A stretch of DNA of 45,703 nucleotides from Chlorobium chlorochromatii (lineage in GTDB: Bacteria; Bacteroidota; Chlorobiia; Chlorobiales; Chlorobiaceae). The notes under the pieces are model-generated. The model was given only the letters and a program-made list of their open reading frames with translations. It had not been told where the DNA came from and searched no databases. A program made the translations under genes and the position numbers. The stretch spans positions 7,601 to 53,303 of the forward strand of contig DYND01000010.1 of the NCBI GenBank assembly GCA_020721255.1, in the 5' to 3' direction. The stretch's first letter is position 1. Each line of letters begins with the position of its first letter. Positions 15 to 6,672 of this stretch are shown in pieces.

Positions 15-776
15 GTCGCGCCCTTCGCGGGCGCGTGGATTGAAACACCTATTACGTTATCACCCTGCACGAAAAGCAGGTCGCGCCCTTCGCGGGCGCG
101 TGGATTGAAACTCAACCGCTGAGTTAAACCCATTACCCATACTGTTCGCGTCGCGCCCTTCGCGGGCGCGTGGATTGAAACATAATATTTGACAATGTGA
201 AAGATTGGGGTGGGTCGCGCCCTTCGCGGGCGCGTGGATTGAAACGTTCATCATAATTCATCCCTTTCTTAGAGATAAAGTCGCGCCCTTCGCGGGCGCG
301 TGGATTGAAACGCCTCCTATAAACCAACCGGTAGATATATATATAGTCGCGCCCTTCGCGGGCGCGTGGATTGAAACTTCACTCCCGGTATATTAATAGG
401 GGGTTGGTCAGTCGCGCCCTTCGCGGGCGCGTGGATTGAAACACCACCTACTAACAAAATGGTGTAATTGTGAAGTGGATCGCGCCCTTCGCGGGCGCGT
501 GGATTGAAACACTAGTAACGTGAGGTGTCGCAAATCAATGCAACACCGTCGCGCCCTTCGCGGGCGCGTGGATTGAAACGACAAAAAGTTTAAAACCGGC
601 ACTTCAAATAATCGTCGCGCCCTTCGCGGGCGCGTGGATTGAAACAGTTCATTGTACTTTGTCATCCCGTCGAACACGGTCGCGCCCTTCGCGGGCGCGT
701 GGATTGAAACTGAAGTGGAATATGTGTTTTTCTGGAAGCCCTGAGTCGCGCCCTTCGCGGGCGCGTGGATTGAAAC
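15..776 (+). CRISPR. CRISPR array, type I-C-like repeat, 12 repeats, truncated by the left window edge
   Basis: Twelve copies of a 32-base repeat begin at 15, 80, 150, 214, 280, 346, 411, 479, 548, 614, 679 and 745. The repeat starts GTCGCGCCC, has a GC-rich stem of GCGCCC with GGGCGC, and ends GGATTGAAAC. All copies read identical except the eighth (479), where the first base is A instead of G. Spacers are 32 to 38 bases, and none is seen twice. Bases 1-14 are the tail of another spacer, so the array continues to the left. The GAAAC end is the 3' side in type I-C, so the leader and cas genes should lie left of the window; no cas gene is present here. The last repeat (745-776) is not degenerate, which is unusual for a trailer end and suggests truncation. 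Short frames open across the array are artefacts of the repeat. Confidence 0.97.
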
Positions 777-893
777 TTGATGTTCGGCGCTCTCTCGGCT
801 TTGCGCGTGAGGCATCGCCCTCTTGTATTCGTTCCAGACAAGGTTCAGGTTATTGATATGCTGAATTTGATATATCTCTTGATAGATACCAAG
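777..893 (-). pseudogene. DNA methyltransferase remnant (copy A) abutting the CRISPR array
   Basis: Read on the minus strand, this stretch encodes a fragment with the core INNLNLVWNE, preceded by GIYQEIYQIQH and followed by KRAMPHAQSRES. The same core occurs in the remnant at 1685-1921, where it follows a recognisable methyltransferase PPYW motif. No start codon or longer frame is present. At the DNA level it forms a diverged direct repeat with the other copy: 787-862 matches 1685-1756, and the 17 bases 832-848 are identical to 1726-1742. It begins directly after the last CRISPR repeat. The methyltransferase assignment for this copy rests on its likeness to the other remnant, so it is an inference. 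Confidence 0.45.
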
Positions 894-939: not shown

Positions 940-1200
940 ATGCCTGTTACTGCAAAGATTTTTATATCAGGGCGAAGTCAAGCCGTCCGAATACCGAAGG
1001 AGTTCCGTTTCGAGGGAAAAGAGGTCTTTATCCGTCGTGATGCAATTTCCGGCGATATCATTTTATCACACCATCCAGATTCATGGTCAGGGCTGTTTGA
1101 GCTTGATACAACAACTGAAGTATCTGCCGATTTTATGCAAGCTGACGATCGAACGCAGCCAGAGCAATTGCGAGATCCGTTTGAAGAGTGGACAGAATGA
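940..1200 (+). CDS. vapB: VapB-type antitoxin, AbrB/SpoVT fold
   Basis: This encodes an 86-residue antitoxin that would bind the downstream VapC toxin and repress the shared promoter. Residues 3-45 fit an AbrB/SpoVT swapped-hairpin DNA-binding domain: [20 protein letters not shown] is the typical VapB opening, with the SQAVR(I/L)P motif. The acidic C-terminal tail, ending DPFEEWTE, resembles the toxin-clamping tail of VapB proteins. An AAGGAGG ribosome site lies about 8 bases before the ATG, which fixes the start. Its stop overlaps the vapC start in an ATGA arrangement, indicating translational coupling. The pair lies between two methyltransferase remnants and next to a CRISPR array, in an accessory setting. 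Autoregulation is expected from the family, but I saw no clear operator. Confidence 0.9.
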
Positions 1201-1610
1201 GCCTCTACATGCTGGATACGAATATTGCCAGTCATATTATCAAAGGGGACATTCCTCTTGTTCGTGAGAGGCTTGTTGCTGTACCAATACAACGTGTTGT
1301 AGTGTCATCGGTTACGCAGGCTGAATTACTCTATGGCTTGGCAAAACGCGCCTATCCAAAGGGTCTTACAGCCCGAGTCCATGAGTTTTTGATTCGGGTA
1401 AAAATATTGGCTTGGGATAAAGAGGTTGCCGTCTTCTATGGTGATCTTCGAGCCAAGTGTGAAACCGCAGGTGTAACGCTCTCACCACTTGACCTTATGA
1501 TTGCGGCTCATGCTCAGGCAGTCAATGCCGTTCTTGTCACAGGAGATAAAGCGTTTACCAGAGTCCCTGATCAGTTAATTATAGAAAATTGGACACTGTC
1601 ACCATACTGA
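1197..1610 (+). CDS. vapC: VapC-type PIN-domain ribonuclease toxin
   Basis: This is a 137-residue PIN-domain toxin, a Mg2+-dependent endoribonuclease; members of the family cut tRNA or rRNA. The conserved acidic residues of the fold are visible: D7 in YMLDTN, E43 in TQAELLYG, D99 in [11 protein letters not shown] and D117 in VTGDKAF. Length and motif spacing match VapC of the MvpT/FitB type. The ATG at 1197 overlaps the vapB stop. An in-frame ATG three codons earlier (1188) is less likely because SLYMLDTN is the usual N-terminus. The active site looks intact, so the toxin should be functional. The RNA target cannot be read from the sequence. Confidence 0.92.
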
Positions 1611-1684
1611 TCATCATCTGGAACAATCCTGCAAGAATAATTCGTGGGATATTCGGAGGTACGGGAGATAGGCATCGCCGATGA

Positions 1685-1921
1685 GCGCTCTTTCTGCTCT
1701 TTGGTGCGTCGCCTTCTCGCATTCATTCCAGACAAGGTTCAGATTGTTGATGTAGCTTTCGTAACTCTCGTGAAAACCGCTCTGCTTCTCCGTCCCGTAG
1801 TCCTGAGCTGCCAGTACGGCGGTAAAGTGACAACAAGATGCACCGCCCTGTCAGCGAGAAGGTTCATCTGTCGGCTGTCGCCATGGATTATGGAGTGATG
1901 GCTCTTCAAGGTGCGGTTGAG
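1685..1921 (-). pseudogene. Site-specific DNA methyltransferase remnant (copy B), frameshifted
   Basis: On the minus strand, residues HGDSRQMNLLADRAVHLVVT followed by LPPYWQL resemble the N-terminal catalytic motif of N4-cytosine/N6-adenine methyltransferases (usually TSPPYW). After about 1804 the frame breaks. Reading on in the next frame gives DYGTEKQSGFHESYES and then INNLNLVWNEC, the expected continuation, so one base has been lost. The similarity ends near 1700, and the catalytic core and target-recognition region are absent. The usual Ser before PPY is Leu here. The gene is dead. It shares a diverged direct repeat with 787-862 on the other side of vapBC. Confidence 0.6.
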
Positions 1922-2089
1922 TGTCCGGGTTGTATTTATTCCATCTGGAATACTGAGAATAGAGTCCTGCTCTCCCATAAGGCGCAAAGCTTCACGTATA
2001 ACCTCGCTTGCAGAAGTATAAAGTCCTGACTTCACTTTTTGCCGAACCATTTCTTCAAGGAGCGGAGTCAGATTAACATTAATTGGCAT
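1739..2089 (-). pseudogene. ParD-like antitoxin N-terminus fused to the methyltransferase remnant
   Basis: An open frame of 116 codons starts with about 42 residues of a ribbon-helix-helix antitoxin of the ParD/CopG type: VNLTPLLEEMVRQKVKSGLY, then TSASEVIREALRLMGEQD. ParD proteins normally go on for another 35-40 residues that bind the ParE toxin. Here the frame instead runs into methyltransferase sequence from about residue 57 (position 1921) and then out of frame. No ParE gene follows. I read this as a recombination junction between two broken genes rather than a real fusion protein. The N-terminal DNA-binding part could still be made. No clear ribosome site precedes the ATG at 2089. Confidence 0.55.
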
Positions 2090-2410
2090 GACTTCATTTT
2101 TGGTTTCTCAAGCTATCACCGATAACTCACAATAACTCTGCTACTGGCAATTTCTACCAATTATTGAAAAAGATCAAATAACGTCAGTCTCTTTTTACGC
2201 TCCATTAGTCAAGCTTGAGAATGCCATCGCGGAGATAGGGAAAGCTCCCCATAATTGAGGCACTACCGGTGGTATTATCTAACTTTCCGAACACTTTACA
2301 CCGACGAGTGGTATATATTATAATAATAAAATAAGTTACTTGCTATCAGTGCGTATTTCGTCGCTATAAACATAGTTATATTAATAACTATGTCAAAAGG
2401 AGGTTAGCCT
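2090..2410. other. Gene-free stretch between toxin-antitoxin debris and a transposase fragment
   Basis: No convincing coding sequence was found on either strand over these 321 bases. The right half (2310-2400) is AT-rich and contains one strong hairpin at 2370-2393, listed separately. The left half may hold further decayed sequence, but nothing I can name. Confidence 0.5.
2370..2393. promoter_or_regulatory. Perfect 10-bp inverted repeat upstream of a small ORF
   Basis: ACATAGTTAT (2370-2379) pairs perfectly with ATAACTATGT (2384-2393) across a four-base ATTA loop. It lies 17 bases before a small open frame with a strong AAGGAGG site. It could be an operator, or part of the end of a mobile element. 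There is no T-tract, so it is not a typical terminator. Confidence 0.4.
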
Positions 2411-2548
2411 ATGGCTATTCGAGTCCATTATTTCAACAAAAAAACGGAGTCACCATACATATACGCGGCAGTCTCCGTCCACAGTCGTGCCCTTCGAAAA
2501 CGACGGATTACCTCCTTTTTTATGCGAGTTCGGTTTGTTCCGTTTTGA
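2411..2548 (+). pseudogene. Probable N-terminal fragment of an IS transposase, running into CRISPR-like DNA
   Basis: This 45-codon frame has an AAAAGGAGG ribosome site 7 bases before its ATG. The first 23 residues (MAIRVHYFNKKTESPYIYAA and the next three) resemble the opening of IS1634/IS4-type transposases, which often begin with a short beta-rich segment ending in Y-x-x-A-x-S. From residue 24 onwards the frame reads through the first CRISPR-like unit (2484) and is basic nonsense ending at TGA. The transposase assignment is a resemblance from memory and is weak. The abrupt change at about 2480 suggests a junction where the element was cut off. Confidence 0.35.
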
Positions 2549-2685
2549 GCGTCCCGCCCTTCGTTTGCGGGTGGACAGAAAACCAGATCCAACGCTCGAT
2601 ATCAGCGCTGAAAGACACAGTCGTGCCCTTCGAAAACGACGGATTATCCCCTTTTTTATGCAAGTTCGGTTTGTTCAGTTTTGAG
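2484..2685 (+). CRISPR. Degenerate (fossil) CRISPR-like units, three repeats
   Basis: Three segments start at 2484, 2551 and 2620, spaced 67 and 69 bases apart, inside the 64-70 base period of the live array at 15-776. Each keeps the core CGCCCTTCG or GTGCCCTTCG. The middle one (2551-2582) matches the live 32-base repeat at about 25 positions, including GTGGA and GAAA at its end. The outer two (2484 and 2620) match mainly in the first half plus GGATT. All three keep a hairpin: GTCGT with ACGAC in the outer ones, CCCGC with GCGGG in the middle one. The intervals are 34-37 bases. The unit at 2482-2549 is nearly the same as 2618-2685, spacer included, so one unit was duplicated. No cas genes are nearby. 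Confidence 0.6.
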
Positions 2686-2720
2686 GCATATCAACAAAGC
2701 GGATTTCCCGGTAAATTGAT

Positions 2721-6025: not shown

Positions 6026-6318
6026 TCATGCTGAAAAAGGCGGCTCTCTTCAATAATGCAACGATAGATTTTTTCAAGAGCATGAGCTTTCAAAGGAGAG
6101 TCCGCATGGCTCAACACATTGTGCAGCACCACTTTTTCCCGTTCGGGCTGCAGAACCTCTTCTCCGATTCTCAACTTTAATGCGCTGATATTCTGGGCAC
6201 ATTCCAACCGTTCACAAAGAAGCGTCGAGAGTTGCTGATCAATGGCATCAATTTTTTTTCTCCATTCGTCAAGTTCTTTCCAATGCTCTGTTTTGTTCTC
6301 GATGCTGTCGGACATCAT
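5989..6318 (-). CDS. Chorismate mutase, AroQ type
   Basis: This 109-residue all-helical protein should convert chorismate to prephenate for phenylalanine and tyrosine synthesis. The AroQ pattern is visible: LDEWRKKIDAIDQQLSTLL (helix 1 with the conserved Arg and the ID-x-(I/L)-D-x2-(I/L) signature), ERLECAQNISALKLRIG (conserved Arg and Lys), PEREKVVLHNV, and a third helix with IYRCIIEESRLFQHEW. It is free-standing, without a prephenate dehydratase or DAHP synthase domain. Two adjacent ATGs (6318, 6315) could start it. It is the promoter-proximal gene of the minus-strand group and faces away from the mraZ cluster. Confidence 0.85.
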   Translation of the reverse strand: MMSDSIENKTEHWKELDEWRKKIDAIDQQLSTLLCERLECAQNISALKLRIGEEVLQPEREKVVLHNVLSHADSPLKAHALEKIYRCIIEESRLFQHEWKNKQQGSQTT

Positions 6319-6672
6319 GATGACGGTGGTTAAGGGTGTGTAAAAAATTCTCTTTTAAGTTTACTCTGTTATAGTAATGCTTTTTACCGTTGGGTTCAAT
6401 GAATTTACGGGTTCTGAACACCCTTCAATCCAGAGTAATCGTTTTGTTTTCATAAGGTTGAGCGTGCGTAAAATACGTATCAAGCCAGACTGTTAAAAAT
6501 AGCCAACTATTTTTTTAGTGCATCCTTTTTTTATACATTTTCGAGTGGCAAAAAATGGTAAAAAATGGAGCTTGACTCCTTATCCAGCTCTTTTTTTGAC
6601 AGCCTCAGGCAAAGTAAAGGGTTGAAAGGGAGTGATTATTTCCAAAATGTTGGCGGCACAGGAAACACGACA
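6319..6672. promoter_or_regulatory. Divergent intergenic region between chorismate mutase and mraZ
   Basis: This 354-base region separates two divergent transcripts and must hold promoters for both. It is AT-rich towards the mraZ side. TATACAT at 6532-6538 is a possible -10 for the cell-wall cluster, but no good -35 sits at the right distance. The iterated TGG boxes at 6546-6568 are listed separately. An in-frame ATG at 6565 would extend MraZ by 36 residues, but these do not belong to the family, so I treat 6565-6672 as 5' leader. Confidence 0.5.
6546..6568 (+). promoter_or_regulatory. Candidate MraZ operator: three TGG boxes at 10-bp spacing
   Basis: TGG occurs at 6546, 6556 and 6566, each pair separated by seven bases that are almost all A, so the boxes repeat every 10 bp on one face of the helix. 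MraZ is known to bind iterated TGGG-like or GTG-like boxes upstream of its own gene. The array sits 105 bases before the mraZ start, just after a possible -10 (6532-6538). This points to autoregulation of the whole cluster. Confidence 0.5.

Follow-up and report, generated by a model that had tools for sequence, protein, structure and literature searches.

Three decayed repeat units beside a type I-C CRISPR array in a Chlorobium-like genome are very probably its detached tail

Introduction

Decayed repeats are found at the 3′ end of 27% of CRISPR arrays, nearly half of them severely mutated (PMC7913763), and arrays interrupted by IS elements are also recognised (CRISPRidentify, PMC7913763). Some repeats outside arrays are functional. 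The creA genes, which specify the antitoxin RNAs of CreTA systems, typically contain degenerate, mutually divergent repeats outside the array (PMC8501985, PMC9458426), and Racr are solitary repeat units (PMC10651486). Tails split from an array matter for separating dead repeats from functional ectopic repeats of the CreA and Racr kinds.

Here we describe a stretch of 45,703 nucleotides (hereafter, the window) that forms part of contig C9 of a Chlorobium-like metagenome-assembled genome, 66% complete. Three decayed repeat units, A, B and C, lie about 1.7 kb beyond the end of a live type I-C array (from 776 to 2484). We conclude that they are very probably the old trailer-side end of that array, split off, decayed and functionless. 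They resemble the degenerate trailer-end repeats of other arrays, including IS-interrupted ones (PMC7913763), in being leader-distal and severely mutated, in keeping the array period and in having debris between them and the array. The locus differs in that the gap is filled by a mixture of debris and not by a single clean IS, and in that one unit appears to have been duplicated after decay. Few strongly mutated repeats at a spacing of about 66–67 are likewise what remains of a type I-C array next to the cas genes of a relative from another genus (G001, locus L142), but there no long live array is left, and ATTGAAAC or the stem is better preserved.

Results

The array starts at C9:2598, beside cas4, cas1c and cas2, and extends into the window as far as 776. 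Its repeat occurs in about 86 copies, nearly all perfect, at a spacing of 64–70. The array begins to the left, where the cas4-cas1c-cas2 genes and its first repeat are; the fossil units are therefore on the trailer side, and they share the orientation of the live array. The last live repeat (745–776) is perfect, unlike the decayed terminal repeats of several relatives' arrays, and a gene relic starts about 10 bases further on. The features from the array to the end of the fossils are as follows.

15–776, forward strand: live type I-C array, distal 12 repeats, repeat GTCGCGCCCTTCGCGGGCGCGTGGATTGAAAC
786–880, reverse strand: gene relic, DNA-methylase-like by eye, partly matching a second relic at 1684–1773
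940–1610, forward strand: VapB-VapC toxin-antitoxin pair, apparently intact
1644–2089, reverse strand: frameshifted methylase-like relic (by eye) joined to the N-terminal part of a ParD-type antitoxin (by Pfam)
2278–2479, forward strand: first ~200 bp of an IS element, comprising left end, promoter-like sequence and transposase start
2484–2515, forward strand: unit A, decayed repeat GTCGTGCCCTTCGAAAACGACGGATTACCTCC
2516–2550, forward strand: unit A spacer, kin to the C spacer, with a weak likeness to a dispersed Chlorobium intergenic element
2551–2583, forward strand: unit B, decayed repeat GTCCCGCCCTTCGTTTGCGGGTGGACAGAAAAC, 24/32 to the live repeat
2584–2619, forward strand: unit B spacer, with a 22-base core that has no exact match in viral contigs
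2620–2651, forward strand: unit C, decayed repeat, its first 27 bases the same as A's
2652–2686, forward strand: unit C spacer, near copy of the A spacer

The preliminary description of this DNA proposed three fossil CRISPR units in the period of the live array, and this proposal holds. The units start at 2484, 2551 and 2620, so that A and B are 67 bases apart and B and C 69, both within the range of the live array. No fourth repeat follows the unit C spacer. Ungapped identity to the live repeat is 24/32 for B and 17/32 for each of A and C, and in 100 dinucleotide shuffles the best identity anywhere on the two strands of the 45-kb window was 22/32; B alone is thus beyond chance as a homologue of the live repeat. 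Taken one by one, A and C are weak over the whole repeat (their gapped score is equalled in 0.33% of random places), and they are significant through their phase, one array period on either side of B. Both match the first 13 bases of the repeat at 12 positions, a match that occurs 3 times in 736,806 control positions, or with a probability of about 6e-5 for the 14 allowed phases.

The loop of the repeat hairpin ties the fossils to this particular array. The stem CGCGCCC/GGGCGCG is common to the array loci from about 30 Chlorobiaceae genomes, and the five-base loop varies. In a comparison of these loci, of the sort that the preliminary description had proposed, the loop TTCGC was confined to this genome's own array. 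The motif CCCTTCG is present in all three units, which together with the private loop indicates that they descend from the array's own lineage. Outside this locus, no A-type repeat with three or fewer mismatches occurs in 86 family genomes, and exact searches of genome and viral collections returned no A-like repeat. We also considered whether A- or B-like repeats might be live variants elsewhere and rejected this, as the array loci examined all have one stem. The fossils match nothing in Rfam, where the live repeats weakly resemble CRISPR-DR9, and plasmid searches for the segment and the IS peptide led no further.

The duplication of a whole unit, which had also been proposed, is borne out. 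The A and C blocks (2480–2549 and 2616–2685) are identical at 66 of 70 positions (94%), and the homologous block equals one repeat plus spacer to within 1–4 bases. The live array, too, appears to contain duplicated repeat-spacer units (locus L002, C9, 3726–3893 and 4598–4827), with the same spacer present in two copies, and duplication of this kind would then not be unique to A and C.

Between the array and unit A lies the toxin-antitoxin and transposon debris of the earlier account, here resolved into the VapBC pair, the IS fragment and gene relics. The relics at 786–880 and 1684–1773 are related (-NNLNLVWNE-), both methylase-like by eye, and stand on both sides of the VapBC pair. The fossils themselves are flanked by the IS fragment and by housekeeping genes. 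Relatives of the IS fragment encode proteins of 525–550 amino acids, which we take, from their N-terminal sequence, to be IS1634-type transposases. The transposase gene is preserved for its first 23 codons (2411–2479) and broken off just before unit A, the fragment ending at 2479/2480. At the same locus, sister genome G067 has restriction-enzyme-like genes (by eye), no array and none of the units; without an array there, G067 cannot date the split.

The abutment of the IS fragment on unit A raises an alternative, in which only B is a CRISPR relic, A consists of the start of the transposase gene followed by a copy of a dispersed element, C is A's duplicate, and the resemblance of both to the repeat is accidental. 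The transposase frame does retain some similarity eight residues into A, and this counts against a detached tail: SRALRKRR, read in frame, is closer to NKELKQSR of the transposase than 99.7% of stretches drawn at random in frame (P = 0.0024). DNA identity to transposase relatives, however, is 58–72% over the 69 coding bases and drops to about 30%, the chance level, from the start of A, and unit C has no transposase sequence in front of it.

The spacers bear on the same alternative. A dispersed 35-base element, with consensus CCTTTTTTATAGGTGTCCGATTTGTCCRGTTTTGA, lies between genes in 10 other Chlorobium genomes, and a control search with the reversed pattern gave no matches. The C spacer differs from the element at 7 of 35 positions, and when the window is scanned with an element profile made from sequences outside it, the two best matches are the A and C spacers (E = 0.01 for A, 3e-4 for C). 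As these two spacers were themselves the query that led to the element, the link is no more than suggestive. The copies elsewhere have no repeat-like sequence upstream, which speaks against the accidental reading, as does the need to put down to coincidence the array phase, the loop private to this genome and a duplication of unit size. We therefore consider it unlikely. An unrelated dispersed repeat had been named beforehand as the observation that would undo the CRISPR interpretation; a likeness of this sort is present, weakly, for the spacer half of A and C and absent for the repeat halves, which have no copies in the 86 genomes. Exact cores of the A/C and B spacers, searched as protospacers, had no match in viral contigs. 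Sites of the dispersed element were recorded at L003, L005, L008, L034, L036–L041 and L043–L050, and by eye some of them lie just past a stop codon or just ahead of a start codon.

It had further been suggested that each fossil keeps a hairpin with changed but matching bases, possibly under selection on the RNA. The stems are present as described, but the changes are not of the expected kind. The stem of A and C pairs positions 1–5 with 17–21, while the live stem pairs 3–9 with 15–21, and pairing in a new register does not represent matched changes within the live stem's pairs. In the B stem there is one true double change (G4-C20 to C4-G20), and two pairs, C8-G16 and C9-G15, are gone. RNA folding z-scores relative to shuffles are −1.1, −1.8 and −1.3 for A, B and C, none significantly better than shuffles, and −2.0 for the live repeat. 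When the live repeat was mutated at random to the same distance, an equal or lower energy was reached in 39% of trials for A and 15% for B; at least one compensatory pair arose by chance in 17% of neutral-mutation trials, and a perfect 5-bp stem is present in 17% of random 32-mers from the window. The shuffle folds and neutral-mutation simulation give no support to selection on the hairpin, and none is needed to account for what is seen. More generally, repeats that decay neutrally often still form a hairpin, and its survival therefore says little about function. The case for stem-preserving change is stronger for GTCGTGCTTTTGATAAGTGCG than for the fossils of the window; that repeat lies at locus L142 of the relative from another genus (G001:C1, reverse strand, 6187–6535), a type I-C cas locus with four recognisable repeats, three of them decayed; there the whole stem is kept by two exchanged pairs and two wobble pairs.

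Discussion

The perfect last repeat, the debris starting about 10 bases beyond it and the transposase homology that stops at unit A suggest that the live array is truncated and that the fossils are its detached tail. We infer that the decay resulted from the split. Through a break or an insertion directly behind the last intact repeat, island debris of about 1.7 kb (gene relics, VapBC and a truncated IS element) would have come to lie between the array and A-B-C. Once separated, the units would have ceased to yield guide RNAs and their repeats would have drifted; one repeat-spacer unit, now represented by A and C, would have been duplicated after much of that drift, and the units would now be without function. 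Besides the similarity of the transposase frame, the resemblance of the A and C spacers to the dispersed element, the low identity of each of these two repeats to the live one and the lack of an array at the sister locus count against this account. In kind, the fossils are ordinary array decay with well-preserved anatomy. If the tail was split off as proposed, the locus documents clearly, in one place, how an array loses its oldest memories: mobile DNA first separates them, and they then decay until nearly unrecognisable.

A second alternative is that the split produced a functional set of ectopic type I-C repeats. They would be transcribed from the promoter of the IS fragment, and Cas5d would process the transcripts into decoy or guide-like RNAs, in the manner of CreA or Racr. 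Like CreA, the units are degenerate repeats outside an array with spacer-like flanks, and mutual divergence is what creA genes typically show; B retains a stem and most of the 3′ part, and about 160 bp upstream, at 2295–2324, there is a sequence resembling a promoter (TTTACA-18-TATAAT, 11/12). A Racr unit would have its promoter within 250 bp upstream, but the site here is the transposase element's own. The 3′ handle ATTGAAAC is lost in A and C, which end in GGATTACCTCC and GGATTATCCCC rather than GGATTGAAAC, and B retains GGATTGAAAC in part. Unlike CreA, the fossils also have no target seed and no adjacent cas genes: across the 53-kb contig, spacer-seed matches beside a PAM-like triplet, the kind by which CreA would pair with a nearby toxin promoter, did not exceed the random rate. 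The units fold no better than shuffles, the sister genome does not have them and no conserved copy was found. Racr units are likewise repeat-like, situated away from cas genes and near a promoter-like site (PMC10651486), and are expected on a virus, prophage or plasmid. The fossils differ from them in being three units in array phase, chromosomal and heavily mutated, outside any virus or plasmid context, and probes from them had no exact match in viral contigs. We find no positive support for a CreA- or Racr-like RNA role; a functional set of this kind is very unlikely, and the units are most likely dead.

It is just as improbable that the units stem from a second, foreign type I-C array or mini-array that arrived with the island DNA: they do sit inside mobile-element debris and are decayed far beyond any repeat of the 86-repeat live array, but they share their loop with this genome's own array only, lie on its trailer side in its orientation, and have no related array in 86 genomes.

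Two other loci from the survey concern repeats outside a continuous array. On a 3.8-kb contig (L143, G031:C124), two intact type I-C repeats at reverse-strand positions 63 and 2859 are 2.8 kb apart and are perhaps another array broken by inserted DNA. At L107 (G077:C135, 1501–1532), a single intact type I-C repeat lies in intergenic DNA and is followed by CTTTTTTTTATAGGG; this candidate solitary repeat unit is situated about 350 bp ahead of a gene resembling that of a [NiFe]-hydrogenase small subunit.
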